From Spirosoma rhododendri (GTDB taxonomy: Bacteria > Bacteroidota > Bacteroidia > Cytophagales > Spirosomataceae), in assembly GCF_012849055.1 (NCBI RefSeq), contig NZ_CP051677.1, positions 558,001 to 622,000 on the forward strand: 64,000 nucleotides of DNA, read 5' to 3'. This document shows, piece after piece, positions 24,225 through 63,096 of the stretch. Below the pieces are notes generated by a model. That model did no database searches. It worked only from the letters and a program-made list of their open reading frames with translations, and had not been told where the DNA came from. The first letter of the stretch is position 1. Every line of letters begins with the position of its first letter. Position numbers and translations under genes: made by a program.

Positions 24225-26903
24225 TCAGGCCCAGGCCCAGCCCCCCCGCGAACGGGCAGTCGAGTTGTCGACCTGCACAAACAATTCAAAAATAGCCGAC
24301 AGATGATCCGCTGCTATGCCAATACCATTGTCGCGTACCCGAAGGATGGCTTCCGGGTGGTCCGGCCTGCCGGCATTGTGCTCCAGACTCAGCCAGATCT
24401 GCCCCTGCTCACCCGTGTAACGAGCGCTGTTGGTTAACAGATTGGTGACGATTTGGGTCAGCCGGGTTGCGTCGCCATCCAGTTCGATAGGTGCCGGGGG
24501 TACTTGCAGGTGAAGTTTCTTTCCCTGTGCAAACAACGGCTGACAACTCGCCACCGCCTGTTGAACCAACTCCACGAAATTCACCCGCTCTTTATGCAGC
24601 TCAATCTTACCCCGGCTGATGCGGCCTACGTCCAGCAGATCATCCACCATCCTCACCAGGTGATCGATCTGCCGCTCCATCATCGCTACCGTGGGGCGAG
24701 TTGTCTCGTCGGTGGTGGTTAAGTCCAGGAGCGTCAGACCGGAACGAAGGGTGGCCATCGGGTTGCGCAACTCGTGGGCCAGCATGGCCAGAAACTCGTC
24801 TTTGCGCCGATCCGTTTCCCGCAACGTCGCTTCCAGGCGTTTACTCTCGTGGATGTCGGTGGCCGCTCCGTACATGCTGACCACCTGCCCGGTTTCGTCC
24901 TTAAGCGGTGTCGCGTTGACGGCAAACCAGCGATACGACCCGTCGTGGCGCCGTATCCGGTGCTCCTGCCGCAACGAGGTACTGGCGGCCACGGCCTGTG
25001 CGTAACGCTGGGCCGAACCGTCCCGATCATCCGGGTGAATAGCGTCTGTCCAGCCATAGCCGATGGCCTCTTCCAGACGCTGTCCGGTATATTCCAGCCA
25101 ACGCTGGTTGTACCAGTTGGTTGACCCATCCGGCTGGCTATCCCAAAGCAGGTCGGGTACCAGGTTGGCAATCGACTCAAAGCGCTTTTGCGACTGGCGC
25201 AGGGCTTCTTCGGCCCGGACGCGTTCAATGCGCGGCAGCAACTGCCCGGCCACTTCCTGAACCAGTTCGATCTCGACGGCGGTCCACTCCCGTGGGCGAC
25301 TATCGGCGATAGCGAAGTACGCTTTCCACTTCCCCTCGTGGCTCAACCCAGTAGCGATAAAGGCGCTAATCTGCTGCGCTGCCGCACCGGCTTTCAGCAC
25401 GGCAGCTTCGGGCGTGCCATCGGGTACCTCGCGCTCGATGTCGTTGATAATGGTCGGCATTCCCGCCCGCCAGGCGGTCAGGGCTGCGGGGGAAACAAAG
25501 GCGCGGAGGGGGTGGGTACCCAGCAGCGGGGGCACCTCATTCGCATGCCAGAAATGGCGAACGGTAACCTGATCGCGGTCTTCATCGATATCCACGTAGT
25601 GATAACAGGTGATGCCAAGGTGCGCGGCCAGCCGGGTACCCACGGAGCGGATGATCTGGGCCTCGTCGGTAAGCTGCCCCAGATCCTGAGCAATATTCAT
25701 GAGCAGTTCCCGACCTGTCTCGCGCTGTTTGCGTTCGGTCATGTCTTCAAACAGGACGGCAACCTGGCGGTCCTGCCCGCCGACCCGGGAAATGTGGACG
25801 TTGTACCATCGGTTGGTGGCCTGGTTGTAGTCTTCGACCTGCTCGGGTATGCCGCTGCGCGCCACCCGGTCGAAGGTGTCGATCCAGAACTGCTCCAGAT
25901 TGTGCAGGAACTCGCTGGCACGCATGCCCACGGTGTCGGTCCCCAGCCCCGTCTGGCGGGTAAACGTCGGATTGACTTCCATCAACCGGAAGTCGATCGA
26001 CCGGCCGGACTCATCGCGGATCATCTCGTGGATGACGAAACCCGCATCGATGGAGTTGAAGATGGTGTAATACTTATCGGTTGCTTTACGGGCTATTTCA
26101 TCGTTCAGCCGGAGGATTTCTGCTTCTGCCTGTTTGCGTTCGGTAACGTCTTCCCAGGTATGCACCAGCCGGTCTTCACCCAGGGATGTATTGGTAATGG
26201 CAAACCAAACTTTCCGGCCCCGAAACTGGGCTTCTCTGACATACCCGTTTGCCTGCCCCGAGCAAATGACGTCGATGAACTGGGGCAATTGCACGACGGC
26301 GTTGTCGCCGTGGGCTGTAAATAACCGGCCGGTAAAGTCTTCGCCACCCAGCATCTGAATGCTGGCCCGGTTGATGTATTCGTGCAGAAAGTCAACGATG
26401 TCGCCCTCGTCGTTACGAACGGCCCTGTAGACGGCCATACCAATCCGGGGTGCGTCAATGACATCCTGCAAGAGCGTTTTGCTTTCCCGCAGTTGCTGCT
26501 CGGCTTTTTTGCGGCTCGTAATGTCGGTGGTAGTAGTAGCCACCCCATCGTTCAGCCTGACTACCGACTGGTGGAACCAGCCATCAAACTGCTCGTGTAC
26601 GTAATGCTTCTCGTACTGCTGAGGCTGACCGGTCTCCACCGCGTGTTTAAAAGCCTCAAAAATGCCTTCTTCCACCACGCCGGGCTGGTGCTGCAACAGG
26701 CTTTTACCCACCACATCACCGTATATTTTTTCGGCCGCGTGATTATTGAGTATCCAGGTAAAATCAACAATCTGTCCCTGTTGATTCCGAACGGCTTCAA
26801 AGACCTGGATCATGTCCATCGAGCTGTCGAGGGTAGCCCGGAGCAGCTTCTGAGCCGCCAGTAGGTCGTCGGCCTGTTTATTGGGTTGAGAGGAAGATGC
26901 CAT
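24225..26903 (-). CDS. Multi-PAS/GAF hybrid sensor histidine kinase, N-terminal part, frameshifted
   Basis: The 892-residue frame holds, in rough order, three PAS domains (1-130, 140-260, 275-390), a GAF domain (400-570), a fourth PAS with PAC (575-695), a HisKA domain with H-box [11 protein letters not shown] (about 705-765), and HATPase_c with N-box [10 protein letters not shown] and G1 RDNGIGI. It has no transmembrane segment, so it senses a cytosolic signal, perhaps a small molecule or light via PAS/GAF. It ends abnormally as GGWAWA where the G2 box should read GGLGLGL. One extra G in the G7 run (plus-strand C7, 24241-24247) would restore this and fuse it to the receiver at 23683-24222, giving a protein of about 1,070 residues. 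Confidence 0.88.
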
Positions 26904-27030
26904 ACCGTTGCGGTTAACTAGTTGGGCCGCAGTTTAAAGCTAAAGCATTGACTGAGGGAAACGGCTAGTACCGCTGAAATCTTTCACGAACGGGGCAACC
27001 AGCGGATAAGAACTGAGTATATCGTAAAAA

Positions 27031-27077
27031 GCGAAGGCCGTAAATCTAAAGTCCGACTTTAAATTTACGGCCTTCGC
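27031..27077 (-). terminator. Terminator downstream of menA
   Basis: A 15-bp perfect stem (27031-27045 with 27063-27077) contains a smaller inner stem (TAAAGT/ACTTTA). On the minus strand it is followed by T5, so it ends the menA transcript. Confidence 0.82.
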
Positions 27078-27096
27078 CATTCTCAACACCGTGTAA

Positions 27097-28005
27097 TCAC
27101 AGCACCGTGCCGATGCCAAACAGGATGACGAACAGGAGCGTCGACAGAGCCAGTTGACCCAAGCGGGGGTTCAGTTCAGACGCCTGTTTGTGGTTCGCAA
27201 TGGCGCGGCCGTTCAGGATGAACAGCGGAAACGACAGCAGGTACAGGTAGGCCGTTGCGGGTGCATCGGTAAACACCGAATAGGCCATCGCGCAGGCCAT
27301 GCCAGCATACAGCAGCAGCCAATGGTACTGCACCGCCCGGTCGCGGCCAATACGCGCCGGAATCGACTTTTTGCCGGTCATGGTATCGGTTTCGATGTCG
27401 CGGATGTTGTTGACGTTCAGCACACCCGTCGCAAACAGGCCAACGCTCGTAGCGGGCAGCAACAGCAAGGGGCTGAACGACAGCGTGTGCAGGAAGTAGG
27501 TACCCAACACACCGACCCAGCCGAAAAACAGTAGCACGGCCACGTCGCCAAAACCGGCGTAGCCGTAGGGCCGTTTACCGTTGGTGTAGCCAATCGCAGC
27601 CGCGATACACAGCAGGCCGATCACCAGAAACACCCAGAACACCGACGAATCGACGGCCCCATCGGCGCGGTTGTTGAACGCCAGATACAGCAGCGCAATA
27701 CCGCAAATCAGCGACAGCACCGACGTAATAATCACACCCCGCAGCATGGCTTCACGGCTGATGTCGCCGGTAGCCACGGCCCGGCGGGGACCCACGCGCA
27801 GTTCGGTATCTTTCCCCGATACCGCGTCGCCGTAGTCGTTGGCGAAGTTCGACAGGATTTGCAGCAGAATAGTCGTCAGTGCCGCCAGCCCCGCGATAGT
27901 CCAGCTAAACCGCTGATCGGCGCGAGCCAGAAAACTCCCCAGAATAATGCTGGCCAGCGCCAGCGGCAACGTACGCGGCCGGGCAGCCGCAAGCCAGGTT
28001 TTCAT
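27097..28005 (-). CDS. menA: 1,4-dihydroxy-2-naphthoate polyprenyltransferase
   Basis: MenA attaches the polyprenyl tail to DHNA to make demethylmenaquinone, the respiratory quinone precursor of this phylum. The 302-residue integral membrane protein has about eight to nine hydrophobic segments and the two UbiA-superfamily Asp motifs: NFANDYGDAVSGKDTE after the second helix and DIETDTMTGKKS later. MKTWLAAARPRTLPLALAS is a typical MenA N-terminus, fixing the start at 28005. It lies just downstream of the glutathione peroxidase gene on the same strand, with a repeat in the gap. Confidence 0.92.
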   Translation of the reverse strand: MKTWLAAARPRTLPLALASIILGSFLARADQRFSWTIAGLAALTTILLQILSNFANDYGDAVSGKDTELRVGPRRAVATGDISREAMLRGVIITSVLSLICGIALLYLAFNNRADGAVDSSVFWVFLVIGLLCIAAAIGYTNGKRPYGYAGFGDVAVLLFFGWVGVLGTYFLHTLSFSPLLLLPATSVGLFATGVLNVNNIRDIETDTMTGKKSIPARIGRDRAVQYHWLLLYAGMACAMAYSVFTDAPATAYLYLLSFPLFILNGRAIANHKQASELNPRLGQLALSTLLFVILFGIGTVL

Positions 28006-28010
28006 GGTAT

Positions 28011-28099
28011 TGAATGATAGAATGGTTGAGTGAATGAATGATTGAATAAGCTTACGCAGAAAATATTCAATCACTCAATCACTCAGTCATTCAACAATT
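28011..28099. repeat. 8-nt-unit quasi-tandem inverted repeat (GAATGATT type)
   Basis: The left half (28011-28050) is made of degenerate 8-mers close to GAATGATT/GAGTGAAT; the right half (28062-28099) is their approximate reverse complement (AATCACTC units). The right end overlaps the stop codon of the glutathione peroxidase gene. The repeat fills the whole gap to menA. Confidence 0.7.
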
Positions 28100-28718
28100 A
28101 AAGTCCTACGGCTTTCTTAAACTCTGCGTCTTCGGGTTTCACTTTCGACGCGAAGAAATGGGTCAGTTCACCTTTTTCGTTGACGACGTATTTGCAGAAG
28201 TTCCAGGTTGGCACCTTATCGTTCCAGCCGTTGAGATCTTTGCTCGTCAGCCACTTGTAAAGCGGAGCCTGACCGTCGTTTTTCAGCACGTCGACTTTCT
28301 CGAACATCGGGAACGACACGCCGTAGTTCTTCTGGCAGAAGCTGGCAATTTCGGCGTTGCTGCCCAGTTCCTGACCGGCGAAGTTGCCCGACGGGAAACC
28401 CAGCACCACGATTTTGTCTTTGTGGGTTTCGTAGAATTTCTCCCAGTCGGCGTATTGCGGGGTGAAGCCGCACTTCGAGGCCGTGTTGAGAATAACGACT
28501 TTCTTACCCTTGTAGCTGCTCAGCGCAACAGGCTTGCCGCTGAGCGAGGTTACCGTAAAATCGTACAGCGTTTTGGCGGGAGCCGCGTGGTCGGCGGGGG
28601 CTGTAGCGACTTCATTTTTGTCGCTGAACAAGCCTTTTACAACGTCTTTGAACATAAAACCGGAAGAAATAACGATCAGCGCGACGGCTGCCAGTGTGAG
28701 TGAAACCTGTTTTTTCAT
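28098..28718 (-). CDS. Glutathione peroxidase-family thiol peroxidase, exported
   Basis: This 206-residue protein has a signal-anchor (about 4-22) and a GPx domain. The peroxidatic cysteine is in NTASKCGFT. The second GPx motif reads GFPSGNFAGQE, so the usual GFPCNQF cysteine is absent. A cysteine in SFCQKNYGVSFPMF sits where E. coli BtuE has its resolving cysteine, and the catalytic Trp region WNF is present. It is likely a thioredoxin-dependent peroxidase in the periplasm. The ATG at 28718 begins the signal sequence. The promoter side faces argS, 1.9 kb from its start. Confidence 0.88.
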   Translation of the reverse strand: MKKQVSLTLAAVALIVISSGFMFKDVVKGLFSDKNEVATAPADHAAPAKTLYDFTVTSLSGKPVALSSYKGKKVVILNTASKCGFTPQYADWEKFYETHKDKIVVLGFPSGNFAGQELGSNAEIASFCQKNYGVSFPMFEKVDVLKNDGQAPLYKWLTSKDLNGWNDKVPTWNFCKYVVNEKGELTHFFASKVKPEDAEFKKAVGL

Positions 28719-28802
28719 GGCGAAAAGGAGAGTTAGAAAACTGCTGGCACCGCGCCCTTTCGTCAACGCGGTGCCTATTGAAATAGTTTTTTGGGCGTTA
28801 GT

Positions 28803-30634: not shown

Positions 30635-30650
30635 CAGGATATAGCCGGAT

Positions 30651-30685: not shown

Positions 30686-33223
30686 TTACTTCAGCACGGT
30701 CGTTTGTTCGGCGACGGACTTGATTTTGTCTTTCGAGAAGAAGACGGGGAAATAGCCGTTTTCGGCCCAGATCGGGAACAGGTCGCGGTAGTGCGGGCTG
30801 GCGGGATCGCCGGATTGGCCGGGGCTGTTGATGCCCAGCGTTTTGTCCCAGTCCTCGGTGTCGACCAGTATGCGAAAGGTGGCCCCGTGGGTTTGGTTGA
30901 GGTCGTTGCCCGTCGCGTTAACGGTTTCGCCGTACCCACCCCGCGCCACCGGACCCAGGTTAATTTTTTCGCGCATCGCCTTGTCGACCATGTCGCTCAG
31001 TGGGTGCGTAATCGTGATGTGCTTGTTGTTGCGTTGGCCGTACTGCCATTCGTCCGTGTCGCTGCCCAGCCGGTCGGTTAGTTCGGCGACGGCCTTGTCG
31101 AGGCAGGTAAGCAGCAGACTATCGCGGTAGGCAACGGGATCGCCAGACGCGCCGGGCATCAGGCCGGGCGTAACGAGCCAGTCGATCACGCGTTTGGTAG
31201 GCAGTGTGGTTAAATAAGGCCGGGCTTTTTCGGGGATGGTTCGCTGCGCGATTGCTTTTTTCAACTGCCCCTCCCACGCTACGTAGATCGACGCGGCAAC
31301 CGAACTCGGATCAAGGCGAAAGTCCCACTTGCGTAGGTAACCGATGGCCTGCTCCGTGCGCCCCTCCGGCGACGACAGGTTTTGCAACAGTGGTACCAGC
31401 GTCCGGGCGGTCAGCGACAGGTAATCGGCCTGCAACGCCATAAAGTCGACTAGATTTTTGCGTTTTCCGTCGTTCAGCACTTCCTCGATCCGATCAGCCC
31501 GGTTGGGTGACGCCCATGTCCAGCCGATGGCGTCGCGATGCGGAAAGTTGACCGGCGTCAGGTTATTGTTCGCCGTCACGACATAGCCTTCCGTTGGATT
31601 GAGTTTGTTGGGCAGTTGCTGAATGGGCAGGTAGCCACCCCACTCGTAGCGCCCGTCGCCCGGCACCGGCACCAGCCCGGAGAAGTTTTTGCGAATCGGC
31701 GAGAGCCCCACCGCCTGCCAGCCGATGGTACCGGGATTGGTGGCCGTAGGTCGCTCAGCCCATATCATGTTCTCGCCCGGAATGCGGCTATACGAACACG
31801 CCTGCCGAAACTCCGCCCAGCTCCGTGCCTGACTCATCCGCAAACTCGCCAGATACGGCGCACAGCCTCGTTCGAGCCAGGCCGCCCGGATGGCGTAGGC
31901 CCGGTGATTTTTCGTGTCTTCGTAGACAACGGGGCCGTGGCGGGTGTATTTGAGCGTCGCCGTTGTAGCCTGAGCGCCTTTGACCGGTATCGTTTCGGTC
32001 AGCACCCGCATTGACACCCACTGCCCTTTGTACCGGTACTGATTCGGGTTAGCGGGGTTGGTGTCGTAGACGTACAGGTCTTCGTTGTCGGTTTCGAAGA
32101 TGGTCAGGCCCCACGCGCCGTAGTCGTTATGCCCAATCGAAATGCCGGGCAGCGTCGGCTCCCCCGCCCCGATCACGTTCCAGCCGGGCGCACTCAAATG
32201 TGCCCAGTACCGCAGCGACGGCGTCGATTGCGAGCGATGGGGATCGTTGGCCAGCATGGGATAACCACTGACGGATTTATCGCCCGAAATAACCCAGTTA
32301 TTGGAGCCAGTATACTGCTTTTCCGTCTCGAACCAGCGGTCGATTTCGTTGGCGTTACCCTCACCCCCGGCCCCTCTCCCGCTTCGGGAGAGGGGAGCAA
32401 AATCGGCAGTACTACTCCCCTCTCCCGTTTTGGGCGGTCCGCCGTCGCGAGAGGGGCCGGGGGTGAGGGCCGCTTCATCCTCATCGGCTTTGGCCAGACG
32501 ACCTTGGTATTTCAGCGGTAGCCGGAAGGCTTCGTAGAGTTCGAGGATGGGTTGAAACAGCTCGTCGCCGTTGACGTGCAGGGTTAGGTCGGGTTGGGTG
32601 GGGTTGCTGGCCGGGTGAAACCAGTTGAGTTCGCGTAATTTATCGGCTCCGATCAGGCTCACAAGCCGACCGTATTTCAATTCATCACGTACGTTACCCA
32701 GTAAACCCTGATGCCGACTGACGACGACATCCGGCGTCCAGAATCCGGGCTTCATATTCAGCACCTGAAATTCGAAGGGCAGTTTTTCAGGCGTTTTCAG
32801 GATATCAGCCACGTAAGCATTGATACCCTCGACAAACGCCCCAACAATCTGCGGACCGTGCGGGTGATAGTGAAGCAGTTCCTGATTGATATCGCCCCGA
32901 AAGCGAAACAGCCGCGTGCCGATGTCGCGCTTCAACTCCTGCGGCCCCAGCAGCTCAGCTACCGTTCCGGTCGCCTGCCGACGCCACATTTCGAACTGGA
33001 ACAACCGGTCTTTGGCCGCCGAATAGCCCTGCGCGTAGAACAGATCGTGCTCGTTTTTAGCGTATATATGATTTACCCCCCAGCGGTCGCGGATGACTTC
33101 GACGGGTTGCTGTAAGCCCTTGCGAGGGGGTAGCACTGCCCGCTTCGCAGCAGACCGGGATTGGCCAAACAGCGGGCCCGACAGGAGAAACAGGCAGACG
33201 GTAAGATAACGCAGAGCGAGCAT
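30686..33223 (-). CDS. Penicillin acylase-family Ntn-hydrolase, with repeat-derived insertion
   Basis: Members of this family (penicillin G acylase, acyl-homoserine lactone acylases) cut amide bonds and are processed into alpha and beta chains. The 845-residue protein has a signal peptide from the ATG at 33223 (MLALRYLTVCLFLLSGPLFG). The alpha-chain region begins near VEVIRDRWGVNHIYAKNE, and the nucleophile Ser307 lies in TGSNNWVISG, followed by LANDPHRS and PGISIGHNDYGAWGLT. Residues about 252-289 are rich in Gly/Pro/Ser and are translated from a 112-bp palindromic repeat (32358-32469). They lie in the spacer just before the beta chain. The substrate is unknown. Confidence 0.9.
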   Translation of the reverse strand: MLALRYLTVCLFLLSGPLFGQSRSAAKRAVLPPRKGLQQPVEVIRDRWGVNHIYAKNEHDLFYAQGYSAAKDRLFQFEMWRRQATGTVAELLGPQELKRDIGTRLFRFRGDINQELLHYHPHGPQIVGAFVEGINAYVADILKTPEKLPFEFQVLNMKPGFWTPDVVVSRHQGLLGNVRDELKYGRLVSLIGADKLRELNWFHPASNPTQPDLTLHVNGDELFQPILELYEAFRLPLKYQGRLAKADEDEAALTPGPSRDGGPPKTGEGSSTADFAPLSRSGRGAGGEGNANEIDRWFETEKQYTGSNNWVISGDKSVSGYPMLANDPHRSQSTPSLRYWAHLSAPGWNVIGAGEPTLPGISIGHNDYGAWGLTIFETDNEDLYVYDTNPANPNQYRYKGQWVSMRVLTETIPVKGAQATTATLKYTRHGPVVYEDTKNHRAYAIRAAWLERGCAPYLASLRMSQARSWAEFRQACSYSRIPGENMIWAERPTATNPGTIGWQAVGLSPIRKNFSGLVPVPGDGRYEWGGYLPIQQLPNKLNPTEGYVVTANNNLTPVNFPHRDAIGWTWASPNRADRIEEVLNDGKRKNLVDFMALQADYLSLTARTLVPLLQNLSSPEGRTEQAIGYLRKWDFRLDPSSVAASIYVAWEGQLKKAIAQRTIPEKARPYLTTLPTKRVIDWLVTPGLMPGASGDPVAYRDSLLLTCLDKAVAELTDRLGSDTDEWQYGQRNNKHITITHPLSDMVDKAMREKINLGPVARGGYGETVNATGNDLNQTHGATFRILVDTEDWDKTLGINSPGQSGDPASPHYRDLFPIWAENGYFPVFFSKDKIKSVAEQTTVLK
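32358..32469. repeat. 112-bp palindromic element inside the acylase gene
   Basis: The ends are perfect 21-bp inverted repeats (32358-32378 with 32449-32469, CCCTCACCCCCGGCCCCTCT...). Inside are two further hairpins (32371-32395 and 32417-32456) built on the same CCCCTCTC arms. The unit resembles CCCTCACCCCCGGCCCCTCT-type intergenic repeats that I recall from other bacterial genomes. Here it is in frame in a coding sequence. Confidence 0.85.
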
Positions 33224-34880: not shown

Positions 34881-37306
34881 CTAATCGTCATCATCGTCGT
34901 CCTTGCGGCTGACGGTCAGGAAGGCACCGCGCCGGGGGGCGGGCATCACGGCGTGTTCACCCCGGACAGCTTTCCAGATGATTTCGTTGAATAGCCGGTC
35001 GTCGATTTTGTCGGCGTAGCGCAGGTCCAGCTTTTCCGACTGCCGGGCGGGTTCGGTCATCGCCGTGTTTTTGGCGTCGAGGTCGATCTGCGCGGGGCGG
35101 TGGTCGTAGGTAGTCAGGTCCGCTTTATCCGTGAATAGGGCGTACATCGGCCGGGCACCCGCGTCGTACTGACTCATCGGTGGTAAGCCCAGAATCAGCT
35201 CGATAGTCCGCAGCATTCCCGACGTGGTGTACGATGTATGCTCGACGTGGTGCCGTTTCGTATAGGGACTGATGACCAGCGCGGGCGAGCGGTGCGCGTC
35301 GACGTGGTCGGAGCCGTTCTGGGCGTCGTCTTCCAGCACAAACACCGCGGATTCATTCCAGATCGGGCTTTTCGACAGGTACTCGACAAAACGACCCACG
35401 GCCAGATCGTTGTCGGCGACGAAAGCGGCTGGCGTACGCGCCCCGATCCGGGCACCGCTCGTGTGGTCGTTGCCAAGCCGGATGCTGCTGAAGTTCGGCA
35501 CAGCATTGATTTTTATCAGCGAATCCAGATCGTGCTTCCAAACCTCCACCCGATCGATGTCTTTCACGCCAAGATCGTAATCGGGGTAGTTGGGCGCGAA
35601 CAGCCCGGCTAAGGCCGAATTTTTACGCTTTGAATACGCTTCAAACTCACCGTACGACCGGTAGCGAATGCCCGCCCGTTTGCAGTAATCCCAGATAAAA
35701 CCGCGCTTCGGAAACGCCACCGGCCGCGACCCTTCGTAGTCGTAGGTGCCGCCCCGACCGCCGTAGCTCGTCGGCCACGTTTTTTCCACGTAGTCGGTGG
35801 CGTAGGCGGCCGTGCTCCAGTTGTGGCCGTCGGCACTCACTTCGGCGTCGACGTAGAAGTTGTCGAGCAGCACAAATTCGCGGGCCAGTGCGTGTTGATT
35901 CGGCGTTACGTTTTCAGGAAACAGGCACAGCGACGTATCGCCATTGCCTTCTTTCATATCGCCGAATACCTGATCGTAGGTTCGGTTTTCCTTAATGATG
36001 TAAAAGACGTGTTTGATGGGCGACGTTTTCGCGCCAACCTGCTTCGGAATGGGCGAGTTGGCGGGCCAGTTTGCACCCACGGCCGTTTTTTCGCGCTCCT
36101 TCGTGTACGGCGTGTTGGCGTACACCTGCCGGGTCAGGCCGGTAAGCTGCGTAGGCGTTGGCATGGCAAATAGCGACAGCGTGCCTTTGAACAACCCACC
36201 GATGTACTGCGTGTCAGACTCGCGCCGTTTGTAAGGGTTCGGCCCGGCGGGGTTGGCCTGCGACGAAAACCCTTTACCGTTGGCAACTAACACTTTTTTA
36301 CCGACCACCTGCACACTCGTGGGGTACCAGCCCGTCGGGATGAAGCCCAGCGACCGGCTTCGGCCCGGCTGCGAGACGTCGAAAGTAGCCAGACAGTTGT
36401 TATCCGCGTTGGCGACAAGCAGCGTTTTACCGTCGGCAGACAGGGCCAGGCCGTTGGGCGTACTGCCAGCGGGCGCGTCGGGGTAGAGGGCTGTGTTGAG
36501 CGATTCGAGTACGCGCCGGGCTTTCACGTCGATCACCGTCACGGTATTGTCGTTGGCATTGGCGACGTACAGGTACTTACCGTTATTACTGAACGCCAGA
36601 TCGTTCGGGTGGCTACCGGTGGCGATTTCACCCGTCAGCTTGTTCGTCTTCGGGTCAAACACAACCACTTTATCGGCTCCCCAAACGGTAATGTACAATT
36701 CATCCGACACCGGCGACCGGCGGCAGGTGTAGGCTTCGGCGGGCAGTTTGATGCGCTCGCGAATCTGCCGGGTACCGAGGTCACAGACGTAAAGCGAACT
36801 GTCGTCTTTGGTGACGGCGTAGAACGTCTGCCCGGTTTTGTCGGTGGCCAGCCCGGCGACGGAGATGCGGTTGGGCCACGGCTTACCCAGCACCACCGAA
36901 TCGGTTTTCACCAGCTTGTCGCCCGACACGTCGTAGATCAGCACGCGGTTGTCGTTGCCGCCCGATGCCAGCAATCGTTTGCCATCGGGCGTGAAGCAGA
37001 GCCCCACCCACGACTTGCTGATGACGGTTTCACTCAGCACTTTTTCGCCCGTAATGTCGACAAGCTGTAGCGTCTGCGTGCTCTGCCCATTGTTGGTCAC
37101 GGCCAGTCGTTTGCCGTTGGGCGAGACGACTGTCGTCAACGGCAGGTCGCCGAGCGGCAGCGATTTACCAATGGGCGACAGGCTCCAGCCGTTGGGCAGG
37201 GTTAGCCGTTGTTGGGGGGCGGTAGTCTGTGAGCGGGGGCCGTGGTTTGTGCCAGCCCCGACAGGGCAAGTAGACTTAGCAGCAGCGATACGTAGCAGCG
37301 ACGCAT
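34881..37306 (-). CDS. Secreted beta-propeller/phosphoesterase fusion, probable frameshift in signal region
   Basis: About 808 residues. The first half (to about 390) is a YncE-like beta-propeller with repeated YVANANDNTVTVIDV-type blades. The second half is an alkaline-phosphatase-superfamily phosphoesterase of the phospholipase C/acid phosphatase group (HVFYIIKENRTYDQVFGDM, DGHNWSTAAYATDY, FVLEDDAQNGSDHVDAHRSPALVISPYT). It ends in a run of aspartates. A clear signal peptide (MRRCYVSLLLSLLALSGLAQ) starts at the ATG at 37306, but in another frame; one extra G in the G6 run at 37214-37219 would join it to the mature protein. Without it the only start is a TTG at 37313 giving no signal peptide. 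Confidence 0.85.
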
Positions 37307-37328
37307 AAGGCAAAGCAGGTTAGTTGCC

Positions 37329-47897: not shown

Positions 47898-48432
47898 TTA
47901 TTCAGGACACGAACCTAGTTCTGTCACTTTTTCCTGATCGAGTAACCAGCAATTGCCATACACGTCCGCATAGCGAATTCGGATGTGAAAGGAGGAGTCA
48001 TTCAACATAGTGTTGACCTGATTTATGACCGAATCATCTTTCGTAACGAACAGTATATCAATATCATCACCTGATTTAAACACCGATCCTTTCGATATAG
48101 TACCAAATCCCTTGCCACCCGCCGTATCCTTACCGATTACATCATAGAACAAGGGGCGGATGTTTTTGTAATTCTTTCCCCGGTATGTAATCTCAAAATC
48201 ACGAATTATAGCTGGACCCACGCCCTTATTTTCTAATCCGTAGTGTAATTCACTGTCAAAGTTAAAAGTTACTAGCTAGTATTTGCAAATACGGCCATAC
48301 CGATGCGTGCTGCTGTTCGCGGGCTATTCTGGTTTGAACAATAGAAACGATCAGCGCAGCAAGGCTTAAAAACGTCGCTGAAATGCCCAACAGTAACTCG
48401 ATATTGATACGACGACGGGGCGGAGCAGGCAT
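47898..48432 (-). pseudogene. Membrane-anchored hypothetical protein, split by a 1-nt frameshift
   Basis: The N-terminal part (from ATG at 48432) has one transmembrane helix (INIELLLGISATFLSLAALIV) and reads QTRIAREQQHASVWPYLQIL before stopping at 48262. The C-terminal part continues in another frame (LENKGVGPAIIRDFEITYRG...) to the stop at 47898. Dropping one A from the A4 run at 48264-48267 joins them (LASNF-NFDSELHYGLENKG) into a protein of about 177 residues. I recall similar intact proteins in Bacteroidota; function unknown. Confidence 0.72.
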
Positions 48433-51084: not shown

Positions 51085-51948
51085 ATGGAAGAAATGGAAA
51101 TTGATATCCCGGCGCAGCATCAGGACGGTCAGCCGGGTCTTGAATCTGAAATGACGCCCCAGCCCATCTACATCCGCGACAACTACCGGGGTGCGGGTAA
51201 ACTGGCGGGTAAGAAAGCGCTGATTACGGGTGGCGACAGTGGTATTGGCCGGGCGGTAGCCATACATTTTGCCCGCGAAGGAGCAGACGTCGCTATTTTC
51301 TACCATCCTCGTGAGGAAGAAGACGCCCAGAAAACGAAGGAACTGATCGAAGCTGAAGGACAGCAAGCACTGCTGTTTCCCGGCAACCTGCGCGATACGG
51401 ACTACATTAAATCAGCCGTTGATCAGGTGGCTGCCGAGTTCGGGGCCATCAACGTACTGGTGAATAACGCGGCTAACCATGTCCCGCAGGAAGACTTCAC
51501 CGACATCACCGATGAGCAATTGATCGACACCTTCGAGATCAACATCATCGGTATTTTCCGGGTGACGAAAGCCGCCCTGCCCCACATGAAAGCGGGCGAC
51601 AACATCATCAATACCACATCGGTAACGTCGTATCGGGGTAGCGAAACGCTGGTTGATTATTCGTCTACCAAAGGAGCGGTTACGGCGTTCACCCGGTCGC
51701 TGTCGCAGAATCTGGTGGAGAAAGGTATTCGGGTCAACGGCGTGGCACCGGGCCCGATTTATACCCCCCTGATTGCGTCGTCGCTGACGCCCGAAAAGGT
51801 TGCCAAGTTCGGGCACGACACCCCGATGGAACGCCCCGGTCAACCTGCCGAACTGGCCCCGGCCTACGTCCTGCTGGCATCCGACAGCGGTTCGTACATC
51901 ACCGGTCAGGTCATCCACGTAAACGGCGGCTCGGTGGTCAATTCATGA
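51085..51948 (+). CDS. SDR-family oxidoreductase, YghA/YhdF-like (paralogue 2)
   Basis: A 287-residue SDR with the same architecture as its upstream neighbour: the PAQHQDGQPGLESEMTPQP extension, TGGDSGIG, NNAA and YSSTK. It differs enough from the neighbour to be an old duplication. A second ATG three codons in (MEIDIP) is an alternative start. Its stop touches the near-perfect inverted repeat at 51949. Confidence 0.88.
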   Translation: MEEMEIDIPAQHQDGQPGLESEMTPQPIYIRDNYRGAGKLAGKKALITGGDSGIGRAVAIHFAREGADVAIFYHPREEEDAQKTKELIEAEGQQALLFPGNLRDTDYIKSAVDQVAAEFGAINVLVNNAANHVPQEDFTDITDEQLIDTFEINIIGIFRVTKAALPHMKAGDNIINTTSVTSYRGSETLVDYSSTKGAVTAFTRSLSQNLVEKGIRVNGVAPGPIYTPLIASSLTPEKVAKFGHDTPMERPGQPAELAPAYVLLASDSGSYITGQVIHVNGGSVVNS

Positions 51949-52022
51949 GGTTTAAGGTTTGTGGTTCAAGGTTTAAAGTTTTCAGAAGTCAACATTAAAC
52001 CTTGAACTACAAACCTTAAACT
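51949..52022. repeat. Heptad-type inverted repeat, copy 2
   Basis: Two 32-nt arms (51949-51980 and 51991-52022) pair at 29 of 32 positions around a 10-nt loop. The left arm is built of degenerate 7-mers: TTTAAGG, TTTGTGG, TTCAAGG, TTTAAAG. It occupies the whole space between convergent stops and overlaps the methyltransferase stop codon. Confidence 0.82.
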
Positions 52023-52756
52023 AGTTTACCCGCCCGGCAGAAGACAGGGAAGCAGACGGTCTGTTCGCCGTCGCCCCACAGTGACTGAATGCGCTCGCCG
52101 AAAGCCGTGACGGGGTCTTCTTCGTTCTCGAATATGTATTGCCGCACTGCCGACCATGTTCGCAGGTAGTTCAGAAACCGTTCTAGCGTCCAGTTGTGGT
52201 TAACCATAAACGTAGCGGTACGAACGTCGGCAAACGGAAACGCCAGATCGGCGTAGCGATTGTCGATATGGCTGCGCTGGGGATCCCAGTACGGGCCGAT
52301 GCGGTTGCGATAAAAATCGAGCATAGGCGGGTTGAGTTCGTCACTTAGCTCGACAAGGCCGTAGCCCCATTCGGCCAGCACAGCACCCGGTTTTGCAACC
52401 CGCAGAACCTCCCGGTGAAACGCAGGCACGTCGAACCAGTGAATCGCCTGCCCAACCGTGACCAGGTCGAACGTATGATCGGCAAATGGTGTCTGTTCCG
52501 CCCGACTGATCTGGTAATGGATGTTAGGCCGCTGTACCGCCATTACGAGCTGCGTTTCGCTGATGTCAGTCGCTTCAACCTGCGCAAACCAGTCAGCCAG
52601 CGCGTTGGCCACCTGTCCGTTTCCCGTGGCGCAATCCCAGGCGATTTGGCGGTCGGGCATGTCGCCCAGGATAAACGTATACAACTCATCGGGGTAGTCG
52701 ATGCGGTACTGCGCGTACAGGCCAGCGTGGCCGGAAAAGCGATCAATTGGTTTCAT
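52016..52756 (-). CDS. Class I SAM-dependent methyltransferase
   Basis: A 246-residue soluble protein with SAM-binding motif I in WDCATGNGQVANALA, an acidic residue ending motif II (VEATDISETQL), and FDLVTVGQAIHWFD as motif IV. The HWFD segment is typical of the group related to UbiE/trans-aconitate methyltransferases; the substrate is not predictable. Its stop codon lies inside the preceding inverted repeat. It stands alone. Confidence 0.86.
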   Translation of the reverse strand: MKPIDRFSGHAGLYAQYRIDYPDELYTFILGDMPDRQIAWDCATGNGQVANALADWFAQVEATDISETQLVMAVQRPNIHYQISRAEQTPFADHTFDLVTVGQAIHWFDVPAFHREVLRVAKPGAVLAEWGYGLVELSDELNPPMLDFYRNRIGPYWDPQRSHIDNRYADLAFPFADVRTATFMVNHNWTLERFLNYLRTWSAVRQYIFENEEDPVTAFGERIQSLWGDGEQTVCFPVFCRAGKLV

Positions 52757-53049: not shown

Positions 53050-53447
53050 ATGAAAAAACTGCTCGGACTTCTTTTTGCCTCCGCAGCGCTGGCAACGGCT
53101 TCTGTCGACGCTAACGCCCAAGCCCCTGCTGGCGACATTCCAGCCGACATGAACGCGCTGATGACTAAGTACACCTGTATTGCCTGTCACCGGCCAAACC
53201 AACGTCTGGTTGGTCCAGCCTACGCCGACGTTGCGAAGAAGAACTATTCGAACGAAGAAATCGTCAACCTGATCTATAATCCAGTTCCTGCTCACTGGCC
53301 GGGTTACCCCCGATGGCTGCGATGAAGCAGGTACCGAAGGAAGACGCCATGAAACTGGCCGTCTGGATCAACTCGCTGGACGGTGACGCCAAAAAATCGT
53401 CGACCAAGAAAACGACCACGACCAAGAAGACCACGAAAAAAGCGTAG
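53050..53447 (+). pseudogene. c-type cytochrome, interrupted by a 1-nt frameshift
   Basis: A small periplasmic cytochrome c with a signal peptide (1-24, ending ANAQ), haem-binding CIACH motif, and LVGPAYADVAKK. The frame then derails after PAHWPGYP: the true continuation is MAAMKQVPKEDAMKLAVWINSL, supplying the axial methionine, and a Lys/Thr-rich tail ending KKTTKKA at 53447. Inserting one C in the C5 run at 53307-53311 restores a protein of about 132 residues. As written, the product stops at 53325 and lacks the methionine ligand. Confidence 0.86.
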
Positions 53448-53977: not shown

Positions 53978-55576
53978 CTACGCTACGCGCTTTCCTTCCA
54001 GCACCGGCCGGTCATCTTTCGTCGATGGATTAATAATAGCCAAGCTCTTCTTGAAGTCAACCTGTACGCCGTCGTCACTAAACCGGCACGTCACGGTTTC
54101 GTAGTGGGCCGTTTCGATGAAGCGCCAGATCATCGAAAAGGTGTTGGCATCGGCCCAGGTACCGGTAGCGGCAATTGGCGTTATCGTTTCGCCGGGTACG
54201 CTGGTCGGCACCAGCTTAAGCGGAATCAGCGACAGCGTCGTTTGTCCTAGTCGCCACTCGCTCAGGCCGCACAGCACATCACGCTCCCCTTTTTCATCGA
54301 CCATCGTGAAGCGCGCTTCGTTGGGCCGGAATGCCAGCGACACCGACTTGATGCCCATACTGTTGCTGGCGACGTCGTATTTTTTACCACTAACCTCCGC
54401 CTGTCGGGGCGACGCCTGCCCCGTTGGCGGCATAAACGACAAACCCGCCAGTTGCTGCTTCAACTGCTGCTGGGTGGCTTTCGGTGTTTTGCTTAGCTCT
54501 TTGCCCTGTACGGCGGGGAGAATGTGGCTCCAGACCTGATTCAGAATCCCCTGCATATCGCCCGTTTCTGACGTGATCGCCACAACCGTGTCCTGCTCTG
54601 GCATCACGATGCAGAACTGACCGAACGCGCCGTCGCCCCGGTAGGCGTTGTGTCGGCACCGCCAGAACTGGTAGCCGTAGCCCTGTATCCAGTCGTTTAC
54701 ATCAGCACCGCCTTTGCCACCCGTCGACTGCGCGTGTGATGAGGTTGCGTCAGCAACCCAGGACTCCGACAGGAGTTGTTTGCCCTGCCACTTGCCTTTC
54801 TGCAAATACAGTTGCCCAAACTTGGCAATGTCTTCCGTATGAACGCGCAGGCCCCAGCCGCCCGTATCCACACCGGTCGGGTCGGTTTCCCAATCGGCCC
54901 CGCTGATACCTAGCGGATCGAACAGGCGCGGTTTCAGATAGTCGAGTACGGGCTGCCCCGTTTTGAGTTGAACGATATCCGACAGCATGTACGTTGCTCC
55001 GCTGTTATAGACGAAGTGCGTGCCGGACTTGTGATCGACCGGCTGCGCCAGAAACGCCTTTGCCCAATCCTTGTCGGCCGACGTCAGCATCTGTGGCGTC
55101 GTATCTTTATCGTGTCCAGTGCTCATCGTCAGCAGGTCGCGCACGCACATAGCCGCCAGATTCGGGCTAATGGCTACGGGTACTTTACCTGGAAAAAACG
55201 ACACGACCTTATCATCAAGCGACAGTTTTTTTTCCGCAACAGCCATACCGACCGCCGTCGACGTGAAGCTTTTGCTGAGCGAATACAGCGTATGTTTCAG
55301 CGGTGCCGCGTAGGGAGACCACCAGCCTTCGGCCACAACCTGTCCGTGCCGCACAACCATAAGACTGTGCAGGTTCAGGTTTGCTTTTTCAACGGCATTC
55401 ACAAAGTCGATCAGCCCCTGCGAGGTTACGCCCTGCGCTTCGGGCAGGCTACGGGGCAACCCCGCCGTACGGGTCGGTACGAGCGCCGTTGGAAAGGCGC
55501 TGGCGGTATTCGTTAGCGTAAAACCGGCTGCGCCGATGCCAAGCTGAAGGAGAAACTGTCTGCGGGTCGTGAACAT
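53978..55576 (-). CDS. Serine hydrolase of the beta-lactamase (class C) family, Tat-exported
   Basis: A 532-residue periplasmic protein. The N-terminus TTRRQFLLQLGIGAAGF is a twin-arginine signal. The beta-lactamase/transpeptidase core has the SxxK motif S99-L-S-K102 in LYSLSKSFTS and a YNS tyrosine motif (HFVYNSGATYML); a KTG-like third motif is not obvious. A C-terminal domain of about 140 residues follows. Members act as esterases, D-aminopeptidases or carboxypeptidases; the substrate is unknown. The ATG at 55576 begins the Tat signal. It is convergent with the coiled-coil gene, with 4 bases between stops. Confidence 0.86.
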   Translation of the reverse strand: MFTTRRQFLLQLGIGAAGFTLTNTASAFPTALVPTRTAGLPRSLPEAQGVTSQGLIDFVNAVEKANLNLHSLMVVRHGQVVAEGWWSPYAAPLKHTLYSLSKSFTSTAVGMAVAEKKLSLDDKVVSFFPGKVPVAISPNLAAMCVRDLLTMSTGHDKDTTPQMLTSADKDWAKAFLAQPVDHKSGTHFVYNSGATYMLSDIVQLKTGQPVLDYLKPRLFDPLGISGADWETDPTGVDTGGWGLRVHTEDIAKFGQLYLQKGKWQGKQLLSESWVADATSSHAQSTGGKGGADVNDWIQGYGYQFWRCRHNAYRGDGAFGQFCIVMPEQDTVVAITSETGDMQGILNQVWSHILPAVQGKELSKTPKATQQQLKQQLAGLSFMPPTGQASPRQAEVSGKKYDVASNSMGIKSVSLAFRPNEARFTMVDEKGERDVLCGLSEWRLGQTTLSLIPLKLVPTSVPGETITPIAATGTWADANTFSMIWRFIETAHYETVTCRFSDDGVQVDFKKSLAIINPSTKDDRPVLEGKRVA

Positions 55577-55748
55577 ACATGACAAAGGGGAAGCCCGGTG
55601 GTTTCTAACCGATTTATGTCCCACTAAACCAGTTATTCGATTTTGTACCCAAAAACCTGATACGGCTGATAACAAAAGGTCTTGACACAAGGATTACTCA
55701 ACGACACTCACGACGAGCGTCAAAACTCAACGTCAATTTTTGCAACCA

Positions 55749-56618
55749 ATGGCACAAGTAGAAGAACGGCCTACAGCCGACGAACTCAAAACCGCAGTAC
55801 AGGATTTTCCGGCCATTCAGGCCAAGATGACCCCCGAGCCACAGAGCGATCTGTCGGGTTATAATGCCGCCGGAAAACTAGCCGGTAAAGTGGCAATCGT
55901 TACGGGTGCAGACAGTGGTATCGGTCGGGCGGTAGCCGTAGCCTTCGCGAAAGAAGGCGCCAACGTCACCAACGTTTATCTGGCCGAAGAAGAGGAAGAC
56001 GCTGCCGAAACCAAGCGGATGGTTGAGCAATATGGTGTGACCTGTCTCAACATTCCATCGGACGTACGCAGCAAAGCGAAATGTCAGGAAATTGTTGATC
56101 AAACGATCAGCCAGTTTGGTAAAGTAAATATTCTGGTCAACAACGCAGCTTATCAGCACATTGTCGAGAAGATCACCGACATCACCGAAGAGCAGCTCCG
56201 CCGGACGTTCGACACCAACATCCTTGGGTATTTCTTCATGGTGCAGGCCGTTGTACCGCACCTGACCGAAGGCGACACGATCATCAACACAGGTAGCATC
56301 GTTGGTAAGCAGGGTGAGCCAAAACTGGTCGATTACGCGTCGACGAAGGGAGCCATTCACGCGTTCACGATGTCGCTGGCTACGCAGTTAGGGGAACAAA
56401 AAATCCGGGTGAATGCTGTACTGCCCGGACCGATCTATACGCCGTTCCTGCCGGGTGCGGGTATGGGCCCCGATGGTGTCAAGCAGGCGGCTTCCAAAAC
56501 GATCCTGCAACGCCCCGGCCAACCCGATGAACTGGCACCGGCTTATGTACTGCTGGCCTCGCAGGATGGTAGCTACATCACCGGCAGCCTCCTCGACGTC
56601 AACGGCGGCAACGCGTAA
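55749..56618 (+). CDS. SDR-family oxidoreductase, YghA/YhdF-like (paralogue 3)
   Basis: A 289-residue SDR related to the tandem pair at 50.2-51.9 kb: N-terminal extension with PAIQAKMTPEPQSDLSG, cofactor motif TGADSGIG, NNAA and YASTK. The ATG at 55749 is preferred to a TTG three codons earlier. It stands alone and is convergent with the Uma2 gene across a repeat-filled gap. Confidence 0.88.
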   Translation: MAQVEERPTADELKTAVQDFPAIQAKMTPEPQSDLSGYNAAGKLAGKVAIVTGADSGIGRAVAVAFAKEGANVTNVYLAEEEEDAAETKRMVEQYGVTCLNIPSDVRSKAKCQEIVDQTISQFGKVNILVNNAAYQHIVEKITDITEEQLRRTFDTNILGYFFMVQAVVPHLTEGDTIINTGSIVGKQGEPKLVDYASTKGAIHAFTMSLATQLGEQKIRVNAVLPGPIYTPFLPGAGMGPDGVKQAASKTILQRPGQPDELAPAYVLLASQDGSYITGSLLDVNGGNA

Positions 56619-56621
56619 CCG

Positions 56622-56818
56622 CTGATTGTTCTGAACTGTGATTGTCTTGAACTGTGATTTTTGTGATTACGTTGATGGACTATGATTCTGAAAAGAGAAA
56701 TCAGGGCAATCAATAAATCATAAAAATCACAGTTCAAGATTATCTGAACTGTAATTTTTATGATCACGCTGATGAACTGTGATTTGAAGAATCAGCGAAA
56801 TCACAAAAATCACACGGG
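56622..56818. repeat. Quasi-tandem and inverted repeat (AACTGTGATTTTTGTGATT type)
   Basis: About 200 bp built from variants of TGAACTGTGATTTTT(A/G)TGATCACG..TGATG in both orientations; the inverted copies read AATCA(T/C)AAAAATCACAGTTCA. It fills the space between convergent genes and could fold into several alternative hairpins. Confidence 0.75.
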
Positions 56819-56837
56819 GCCGCCCGGCGGCTCAAAA

Positions 56838-57404
56838 TTACTCAACCGTTATGCCGCGCTTCTGTAGATAAGCACCGACGTTGAACTGCTGACCGTCCAT
56901 GAGTTCAATGTTCCGCGACCAGTCAATCGTTTCGATAAGGTCATTCGTGGCCACGATGACGACGCGTGCGTCGGTCAGCACCCAGATCACTTTTTCAACA
57001 CCGAAGTCGAGAAGTTTGCGGGTTTTGCGGTAGATATAGCTCGTTTCACTGGTATCGGCCGCATCGATGTTGATATCGACTTCGATAGCAATGCGGGGTG
57101 GCACATCAGCGTACTTTTTTGAAATACTTGACGGCGGTAACACGGCCTGATCGTAGATAGCCACGTCGTTTACCAAATTACTCCGGTGATCGATATGCAC
57201 GCCCGGCTTGTTGACCAGCACAAAATACCGGTCTTCACTGGTGAACATAGAAATCATCTTTATCAGGTAATAGCTAATAACAGACTGAAGTGTGCTGGTG
57301 CCCTTGATCTCTTCCAACGTTTTTTTTTCGGCAACAACGTCCCGATACCCTTTCCGATAAAAGGGCTTTCCATCAATCGTCTCATAGATGAGAGACTCCA
57401 GCAT
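56838..57404 (-). CDS. Uma2-family (PD-(D/E)XK-like) protein
   Basis: A 188-residue protein of the Uma2/DUF820 family, which shares the restriction-endonuclease-like fold. The core motifs are NDVAIYD (first acid), PRIAIEVDI (second acid plus Glu) and a following YRKTRKLLDFGVEKVIWV. The family is abundant in Bacteroidota and cyanobacteria, and its nuclease role is unproven. The start at 57404 fits the conserved N-terminus. Genomic context gives no clue to its role. Confidence 0.83.
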   Translation of the reverse strand: MLESLIYETIDGKPFYRKGYRDVVAEKKTLEEIKGTSTLQSVISYYLIKMISMFTSEDRYFVLVNKPGVHIDHRSNLVNDVAIYDQAVLPPSSISKKYADVPPRIAIEVDINIDAADTSETSYIYRKTRKLLDFGVEKVIWVLTDARVVIVATNDLIETIDWSRNIELMDGQQFNVGAYLQKRGITVE

Positions 57405-57478
57405 CTTTTTCGCCTAGATTGACACTGACTGAGTTAATCGGCGGGTCGTTGCTGCTGTCGTTGCCATATCCGTACGCG

Positions 57479-59664: not shown

Positions 59665-59840
59665 AACTGGTAGTGGGGAATCAACCTCAGTGAGCCGTCG
59701 ACCGGATAACGGTATCAACTCGTTGTCTATAACGAAAAAAGCAGGCGGTTCCGCTTATCGGGTGCCGCCATTTTTACGACTACCCGAGCCAGTCGAACCC
59801 CGTTTCGGCACTCACCGTTTTCTTTGCCCCTGCAAAAGAG

Positions 59841-59848
59841 TATTTTTG
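59841..59848 (+). promoter_or_regulatory. Predicted -7 box for the methyltransferase at 59914
   Basis: TATTTTTG, an exact TAnnTTTG match, 65 bases before the start. A TTTG at 59823 is too close (14 bp) to serve as a standard -33 element. Confidence 0.5.
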
Positions 59849-59913
59849 TCGCTTAATTACAAGCGCATCAGCAGGGAACGTCCTGCCACGCTGCGTTTTT
59901 CCGACTGTTAGCA

Positions 59914-60681: not shown

Positions 60682-60740
60682 ATTAACCGTCGCAATGAGT
60701 TTACTAGTAAGAGTATAGACTATCAAGTAAACTCAACGCC

Positions 60741-61322
60741 ATGAGACTGTTTTTGCTTACGCTGACGGCGATTCTGCTGTCGACTTTGTCGACATACGCT
60801 CAGTATTACCGGAACACGGGCCGGGTCGGTGTCGACTTTATGAGTCTTGATGCCCCCGACGACACGGGATTTCGCTACTGGGTCCGCTACGACCGCCACC
60901 TGGCACAGGACCGCATCGTTCTATCGGGTACGCTGGGCTACGCCAACGTAGCGAACCGCCGACAGTACACCCTGTCCACCCCCGTCATTTTCGACGGTCG
61001 CCCCCGGCAGCGGGTTACTGCCGATCTGACGCTCTCCTACGATTTCATCCGCAGCTATCGCCATGCACTACGGCTCGGCGGAGGGCTATCTGTCTGGTAC
61101 CGGCAGGACGACGTAGTTCGGCAAATCAGCCTGGTACCGGGCAACGCTCCGGCAATCGACCATGTCGAAATCAACGAAACAAACGTCGGCTATCACCTGA
61201 CTGCTGAGTACGAATACGCCCTGACAACCCGTGTTGTTGCCGCCGGCCGATTCGGGCTGGCTAACCTGGGCGAAGCTGGTATCAGCTCGCTAGTGGGCAT
61301 CAGCCTGGGCCGTCGCTTCTAA
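60741..61322 (+). CDS. Hypothetical secreted beta-barrel-like protein
   Basis: A 193-residue protein with a signal peptide (1-20, ending TYAQ). The mature part consists of alternating amphipathic strands (FRYWVRYDRHLAQDRIVLSGTLGYA, VTADLTLSYDFIRSYRHALRLGGGLSVWY, and a C-terminal GISLGRRF ending in Phe), as in small 8-strand outer membrane proteins. Function unknown. It is convergent with the next gene, with 3 bases between stops. Confidence 0.68.
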   Translation: MRLFLLTLTAILLSTLSTYAQYYRNTGRVGVDFMSLDAPDDTGFRYWVRYDRHLAQDRIVLSGTLGYANVANRRQYTLSTPVIFDGRPRQRVTADLTLSYDFIRSYRHALRLGGGLSVWYRQDDVVRQISLVPGNAPAIDHVEINETNVGYHLTAEYEYALTTRVVAAGRFGLANLGEAGISSLVGISLGRRF

Positions 61323-61325
61323 CGG

Positions 61326-62102
61326 TCAATAGGCCTCATACCAGTACGTTGTCACTTCGTCGATATAGACGCCGGTTTTGACGCGCCGGATGAGTAGTCC
61401 ACGGCTGTCGTGATAGTGAGTTGTGTTTTTCGTGATTACATTATTACGGTTAAACGAAGTGATGCCGGGGTAGACCGCGAAGAAATTTCGGTAGATGTTG
61501 AGCGCACCATCGAAGCGGGTGGTGTCCTGCGTGATGCGCGGCTCCGTCGTGTAAGCCGTCGTGCTCGTCAGACCGATCAGTGCGGCATTTCCATCGGTAA
61601 ACGTAAAGCTGTACATATCGCGGGCGTAGCGCGGTGCCGGGCCGGTGATGGTCAGCGTGGCAGGCAGGCCGTTGGCATCGTACACGTACTGATACACCTG
61701 CACCGGCTTGAGATGGTCGAAATCGGCCTGTGCTTTCGACTCGCTGACGGTCGAAAGCTGCCCGTTGGCATTGTAGGCGTATGTCCGGCGCGTGCCCGTC
61801 AACGGCCCATCGGCATCAATGGCAGGCTGCGTCAGTTGCCGGTCGACGTGGTCGATGTGAGTGGGTTGAGCGGGGTCGTAGTAGACAGTTGTCTGAGCGG
61901 TTGTCGGGCCGCTTGCCATCGTGTCGGGATAGTCGACAATGGAAGCCAGCCGCCCCTGCTCATCGTATCTGTACGTTATTGTCAGTTTAGACCCGTAGCC
62001 CGTTTGCGACGCCCGAACTACCCGATACTGCCGCAAGTCAGCGTCGTTGGCACAACAGCCAAACAGGGTGATTAGCAATAAGGCAGTTATGAGTTTAAAC
62101 AC
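61326..62102 (-). CDS. Lipoprotein with YD-like repeats
   Basis: A 258-residue lipoprotein (lipobox LFGCC in the signal 1-17) with three or more YD/RHS-like repeats: YRYDEQGRLASI, YAYNANGQLSTV and YVYDANGLPATL. Such repeats form beta-wrapped surfaces in RHS and toxin shell proteins, but here they are few and no toxin domain is present. The start is GTG at 62102, which lies inside the adjacent intergenic repeat. Confidence 0.7.
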   Translation of the reverse strand: MFKLITALLLITLFGCCANDADLRQYRVVRASQTGYGSKLTITYRYDEQGRLASIVDYPDTMASGPTTAQTTVYYDPAQPTHIDHVDRQLTQPAIDADGPLTGTRRTYAYNANGQLSTVSESKAQADFDHLKPVQVYQYVYDANGLPATLTITGPAPRYARDMYSFTFTDGNAALIGLTSTTAYTTEPRITQDTTRFDGALNIYRNFFAVYPGITSFNRNNVITKNTTHYHDSRGLLIRRVKTGVYIDEVTTYWYEAY

Positions 62103-62196
62103 GGAGGTATGGAGGTTTCACAGAGAACATAGAGAGGAGATAAGCACTGGATATTACTCTGTTATCTCCGTGAAATCTCCGTTTCTCTGTGTTTAA
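62095..62196. repeat. Quasi-inverted repeat (ACAGAGAAACGGAGATTTCACGGAG type)
   Basis: The right half, read on the minus strand, is AACACAGAGAAACGGAG followed by ATTTCACGGAGATAAC; the left half holds related GGAGGTTTCACAGAG and AGAGAGGAGAT units in the opposite sense. It fills the gap between the LD-carboxypeptidase stop and the lipoprotein start and supplies the latter's GTG. Confidence 0.62.
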
Positions 62197-62200
62197 AAAA

Positions 62201-63096
62201 TCACTTGCCCGCCCCCCCTGTCACATCGAGCCGGACAGTGCGCCCGATGGGCAGCGTCAGGTTATAATCGACGTGACCGGCTGGCAGGTCAAACAGCACC
62301 GGGTACTTATAATCGGCCACGACATCGGCGATGATTTCGTAGGCATCCTGCCCAAACGGCAGCGACGGATTCAGGCGCATATCGGTAAACTGTCCCACCA
62401 CCAGCCCCGCCAGCTTCGCCAGCCGACCCGACCGGTGTAGCTGCCGCATCATCCGGTCGAGCGAGAACAGCGTTTCGTCAATATCTTCGATAAACAGCAC
62501 CGTTCCGTCGTAGTCGATATCGGTCGGCGTACCGATGGAGTTAATCAGCATCGTCAGATTCCCCCCACGAGCGGCCCCGTTGCCTGACCCGTTCGGTTCA
62601 GCGAGTGTGACGCTATGGCATACTGATCCGGCAATTCACCAAACAGCCACTGCCGCAGCGATTCAAGCGAATCAGCCCGGTCGACATCGCCGAACTGCCG
62701 GGGCATGATACCGTGCAGACTGCCAACGCCATGCCGGTACAACAAACTCAAAAGGGCCGTAACATCGCTGAAGCCAACCAGCCATTTCGGGTGCCGGAGC
62801 AGGCCCGTCAGGTCGAGGTCGTCGGCGATGCGGTAGCAGCCGTAGCCCCCACGTGAGGCAAACACCGCCCGAACGGACGGGTCGTCGAACAGCCGTTGCA
62901 GGTCGGCACGGCGCAGGTCGTCGGAGCCCGCAAACGGCCCATCGGTCGCGTGCAGACTGTCGCCCTCGATCACGTTGAGTTGCCAGTCGTCGCGCAGGAT
63001 GCGCAGGCCTTCGGTTAGTTCAGCATACGGCACCCGGCTCGCGGGCGACACCACCCCGACCGTATCGCCGGGACGTAAAAATGAGGGAATGAGCAA
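62201..63096 (-). pseudogene. LD-carboxypeptidase (peptidase S66), split by a 1-nt frameshift
   Basis: LdcA-type enzymes remove the terminal D-Ala from murein tetrapeptides during cell-wall recycling. The first part (63096-62554) carries VGVVSPASRVPY, the nucleophile-serine region WLVGFSDVTALL and the HGIMP segment. The second (62551-62201) carries GTVLFIEDIDE (Glu of the Ser-Glu-His triad) and LPAGHVDYNLTLPIG (His). One extra G in the G6 run (plus-strand C6, 62561-62566) restores GPLVGGNLTMLINSIGTPT and a protein of about 298 residues, the normal length. Confidence 0.88.

Follow-up and report, generated by a model that had tools for sequence, protein, structure and literature searches.

Probable undercalling of G/C homopolymers behind broken coding frames in a Spirosoma rhododendri assembly

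Why should five genes within 64 kb of a bacterial genome each be interrupted by a small shift of frame? We addressed this question for a window of 64,000 nucleotides (C1:558001-622000) in the 6.05-Mb genome of Spirosoma rhododendri, which comprises 3 contigs and is 99.86% complete. Reading of all frames revealed that the five genes are indeed broken as written, as a preliminary description of this DNA had claimed, and that each of the five resumes in a second frame of the same strand; the C7, G6, C5 and C6 tracts listed in Table 1 and an A4 tract at 48264-48267 were also found as described. We assign a probability of about 0.93 to the explanation that G/C homopolymers were undercalled in the consensus, so that four of the five genes would be intact in the organism and the fifth would be a separate case.

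Table 1. Positions in the window of the broken genes, their tracts and the dispersed repeats
Feature	Position	Strand	Basis or remark
Hybrid sensor kinase, upstream piece	24225..26903	-	Pfam: PAS, GAF, HisKA, HATPase_c to profile position 72/111
Kinase, downstream piece, other frame	23683..24222	-	Pfam: HATPase_c positions 79-109 (below cut-off), Response_reg; frames
C7 run, kinase	24241..24247	.	One base fewer than in 2/2 aligned relatives
Beta-propeller/phosphoesterase gene	34881..37313	-	Frames, Pfam, relatives
G5 run, likely shortened tract of propeller gene	37235..37239	.	Alignment and protein reading
G6 run named in the preliminary description	37214..37219	.	Same length in 2/2 distinct relatives
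Fifth gene, upstream piece, 57 codons including stop	48262..48432	-	Frames; coordinates counted by hand
Fifth gene, downstream open frame, from first start codon	47898..48221	-	Frames
Fifth gene, exact head-to-tail 7-mer repeat	48258..48271	.	Alignment, repeat check
Small haem-motif (CIACH) protein, cytochrome c-like, upstream piece	53050..53325	+	Frames; Pfam Cytochrom_C below cut-off only
Cytochrome c, downstream piece, other frame	53312..53447 (start approximate)	+	Frames
C5 run, cytochrome c	53307..53311	.	One base fewer than in 12/12 distinct aligned records
LD-carboxypeptidase, N-terminal piece	62554..63096	-	Pfam Peptidase_S66
LD-carboxypeptidase, C-terminal piece	62201..62551	-	Pfam Peptidase_S66C
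C6 run, LD-carboxypeptidase	62561..62566	.	One base fewer than in 2/2 aligned relatives
Dispersed repeat	28005-28105		31 matches in 1.004 Mb
Dispersed repeat	32410-32480		18 matches in 1.004 Mb
Dispersed repeat	51945-52025		32 matches in 1.004 Mb
Dispersed repeat	56600-56840		12 matches in 1.004 Mb
Dispersed repeat	62090-62205		6 matches in 1.004 Mb
Dispersed repeat	63110-63210		26 matches in 1.004 Mb

The nearest relatives among the genomes searched belong to the same genus, and S. oryzae showed ~83% nucleotide identity to the window over syntenic blocks. Alignment of relatives at each site, with rows from one contig counted once, provided the comparison with orthologues that the preliminary description had proposed, and revealed a one-base G/C shortfall in four genes and a different situation in the fifth. 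The earlier claim that four genes lack one G or C stands as far as the genes are concerned; the tracts it named were right for the kinase, cytochrome c and LD-carboxypeptidase and wrong for the propeller gene.

The kinase break falls inside HATPase_c: the profile is covered by the long piece over positions 1-72 and, below the cut-off, by the downstream piece over positions 79-109, which the receiver domain follows, and the LD-carboxypeptidase break separates the N-terminal from the C-terminal Pfam domain. Of the two relatives aligned to the kinase, one (61% identity) probably represents a paralogue. In the best 120 of 518 matches from a kinase protein search, 100% identity was found only to the kinase's own entry, no second assembly of the same species appeared, and the next two matches (62 and 61% identity; 1210 and 1202 aa) have the receiver domain. 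For cytochrome c, the 14 alignment rows represent 12 distinct records, each with one extra column at the C5, and a motif search recovered an in-frame protein from 11 of these records, missing L070. The window also encodes a serine hydrolase of the broad Pfam Beta-lactamase family (53978-55690).

In the beta-propeller/phosphoesterase gene, the main frame runs upstream beyond the start and the signal peptide lies in a different frame. The G6 at 37214, to which the break had been ascribed, is not the break site, because its columns are equal in both distinct relatives; the shortfall lies instead at the neighboring G5, and the signal peptide and next residues of S. oryzae agree with this placement. 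Relatives of the propeller gene in another assembly of the genus (G032, 9.1 Mb) occur in several pieces with intervening stops, as if that assembly has frame errors too.

The fifth gene reads as a separate kind of event from the G/C shortfalls. Its downstream frame has no Pfam match, and we know of no Pfam family for the upstream piece. The preliminary description had it carrying one A too many in the A4, which proved too simple: the site contains an exact 7-mer repeat, and the gene exceeds that of S. oryzae, the sole relative found among the loci fetched, by a net 7 bases. It would most simply be explained by a 7-base tandem duplication, either real or an assembly fault. A history in which 6 bases were duplicated in frame and the coding-strand T run gained one base corresponds to the A4 reading and yields the same letters; we consider this history possible and rather unlikely, given that it requires two events where one is enough and that no such insertion error occurs among the clean calls described below.

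Apart from the broken genes, the window contains palindrome-like repeats (Table 1) that are dispersed in near-equal numbers on both strands over 1.004 Mb; the two closest relatives have comparable matches. A near-perfect inverted repeat at 69-114, which has a T run at its end on either strand and matches itself on the opposite strand, resembles a bidirectional transcription terminator.

An ab initio coding-frame model detected none of the known breaks and gave two calls in the window, each at a place where gene starts overlap; comparison with relatives was used in its stead. We scanned 1.004 Mb of the S. rhododendri genome (17% of the genome) with S. oryzae reference ORFs, keeping the 575 of 720 whose codon use resembled that of coding sequence and requiring both pieces of a broken gene to be at least 20 aa long and 60% identical. 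This filter eliminated weak matches, antisense ORFs and part of the 5' extensions, and with them the cytochrome site. The unfiltered scan found 28 sites in 591,515 bases, versus 8 in 590,141 bases when S. oryzae was the target; its list of nonsense changes consisted mostly of antisense ORFs and 5' extensions and was set aside. The filtered scan yielded 20 frame breaks in 558,095 testable coding bases, or ~3.6 per 100 kb, spread along the 1.004 Mb rather than confined to one locus. Eighteen of these calls are clean in-gene one-base shortfalls of the S. rhododendri genome, all 18 in the same direction. The other two are not clean and sit near the likely start or above it: that at 764752 (residue 39 of 185) probably precedes the true start, and that at 951278 (residue 17 of 518) has several small gaps on both sides.

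Controls gave a different picture. With S. oryzae as the target, 4 calls were obtained in 566,670 bases and none was a clean G/C-run loss on the S. oryzae side: two fell in many-gap regions, one was a shortfall of S. rhododendri, and in the fourth S. oryzae itself differed by one base, at residue 41 of 531 and away from a G/C run. A third genome, G019, gave no calls as the target in 76,964 and 77,881 bases, and S. oryzae gave none in 75,857 bases against G019 proteins, versus 3 in 78,671 bases for S. rhododendri against the same proteins; each of these zero controls is small, with ~2.8 calls expected at the S. rhododendri rate, and two of them share G019 as the target.

The calls were concentrated in one base class. 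The longest run within 3 bases of the gap consisted of G or C in 19 of the 20 calls, and 17 of the 20 touched G/C runs of at least 4, which make up 14,693 of the 558,095 coding bases (2.6%), or an estimated ~6% when the three-base tolerance is included. Assignment of a gap to a G/C run appears justified by the overall pattern rather than at each site, the relative having another base, such as T or C, at several gaps. For the same reason, it is an assumption that the true run length equals the written length plus one; when this was adopted, the shortfall rate climbed with run length: 1/2698 at length 4, 8/625 at 5, 5/119 at 6, 3/19 at 7, 0/3 at 8 and 1/1 at 9. The tracts as written are 2-8 bases long at the calls, with no long hypermutable tract.

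Long G/C runs were also depleted over the whole 1 Mb, coding and intergenic sequence pooled. Runs of at least 7 numbered 33 against 5929 runs of 4-5 in S. rhododendri, compared with 61 against 4517 in S. oryzae and 31 against 2269 in G019, an odds ratio of 0.41 in both comparisons (P = 4e-5 and 6e-4). For A/T runs, the corresponding numbers were 161 against 6786 here, 168 against 6177 in S. oryzae and 81 against 2682 in G019, a depletion that was not significant relative to either genome (odds ratios 0.87 and 0.79, P = 0.24 and 0.08). Within the coding set, A/T runs of at least 4 outnumbered G/C runs of at least 4 (3720 versus 3447).

Searches of ten intact S. oryzae references of broken genes against NCBIfam and Pfam identified metH, encoding methionine synthase, chorismate synthase and a sodium/solute symporter, together with a nucleotide-sugar dehydrogenase, an ABC transporter, a type IX secretion plug protein, an outer-membrane barrel and others. 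Across the whole genome, aroC had only two matches, which are adjacent, lie in different frames and correspond to one split gene; metH is broken at two places. As for loss of mismatch repair, the mutS and mutL frames (904 and 720 aa) are open, and no such loss would be predicted from these two genes.

Undercalling is favored because the shortfalls run in a single direction, concern a single base class, occur at a rate that depends on length, are widely spread, hit housekeeping genes, are accompanied by few nonsense changes and have intact counterparts in relatives, and the competing explanations are disfavored because each fails at least one of these traits. Real decay of genes in the lineage, possibly during a hypermutator phase, would leave frames broken as written, and the fifth gene may truly be mutated. 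Decay should, however, also produce nonsense changes, insertions and larger deletions, whereas every clean event is a one-base shortfall and the filtered scan found 1 in-frame nonsense change in S. rhododendri versus 4 in S. oryzae, indicating no decay load. The open mutS and mutL frames speak against a hypermutator, and a free-living prototroph, as we assume this organism to be, could ill afford the loss of its only aroC copy or of metH, which is broken twice. We therefore consider decay very unlikely, and the argument in the preliminary description against independent gene decay holds.

The same description had also raised the possibility that G/C tracts slip during replication and toggle genes on and off, with the assembly having caught the off state. 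The tracts are homopolymeric and control the frame, and the targets include a kinase and surface-type genes, but also aroC, metH and the symporter; moreover, the written tracts are short, the changes go one way only, A/T runs escape despite being more numerous, and the relatives' genes are in frame without a long tract. Such switching is not supported, and we regard it as even less probable than decay. Least probable of all is that the tracts really lack one base in the cell and that slippage at G/C runs during transcription or translation restores full-length products genome-wide, housekeeping proteins included. The G or C runs at the breaks could in principle slip, but the relatives carry these genes in frame, the shortfall grows with run length as basecalling predicts, and long G/C runs are depleted over the whole 1 Mb.

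The other reading offered at the outset, homopolymer errors in the consensus, is supported by recurrence over 1.004 Mb, the single direction, the location at G/C runs, the dependence on length and the housekeeping genes hit. We infer it from sequence comparison. On this undercalling explanation, the consensus would count short G/C runs too low, mostly by one base, with a chance of undercounting that rises steeply with run length, and coding frames would thereby break across the assembly, as seen over 1.004 Mb and extrapolated to the genome. The likely cause is a long-read consensus made without polishing, or without full polishing, by accurate reads, and any one single site may carry a real mutation. 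If the rate holds and an 88% coding share is assumed, a very rough projection from the 17% of the genome examined would give 190 affected coding frames in total.

The breaks in the window exceed chance, but as a property of the assembly, and the window is not special. At the measured rate ~2.1 events are expected in it versus 4 seen (P ~0.15). The comparison is loose, since of these four sites only that of LD-carboxypeptidase was counted in the 20 calls; the three other sites were lost to the filters through lack of an orthologue, too short a piece or masking by an antisense ORF.

Since the fault is seen across the examined part of the genome, it amounts to a warning about data quality rather than new biology. 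If our reading is right, gene counts and pseudogene calls from this assembly are untrustworthy until its G/C runs are checked, claims of lost pathways for aromatic amino acid or methionine synthesis are equally suspect, and derived protein sets contain truncated proteins. The case would then be a worked example of how assembly error can be told from switching or decay without reads.

Phase-variable contingency loci usually have longer tracts, located in surface or restriction genes. The genes studied here resemble them in that a homopolymer controls the frame, but differ in their short runs and in including housekeeping genes. A closer parallel is found in the PacBio-derived bacterial assemblies described in PMC11649196, in which all differences lay in G/C homopolymers of 4-10 bp that had come out 1 bp shorter, a one-base shortfall like that of S. 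rhododendri. Those differences numbered 3, 5 and 8 per 2.57-Mb genome and were proven by a second platform, whereas the shortfalls here are far denser, with ~3.6 calls in every 100 kb of coding DNA, and are deduced by comparison with relatives. In the nanopore example given for Kastor, deletions in A/T were more common than those in G/C (PMC12007338), in contrast to the preponderance of G/C as the longest nearby run in 19 of our 20 calls. Neither parallel thus singles out a sequencing platform, the PacBio case being far sparser and A/T deletions being the more numerous in the nanopore example. Residual homopolymer indels are described as still a challenge for both long-read platforms (PMC8495745), and gene-splitting homopolymer indels in long-read assemblies are addressed by Homopolish (PMC8011154) and Kastor (PMC12007338); like the systematic nanopore indels described there, those of S. 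rhododendri split genes at homopolymers and become visible against homologues.
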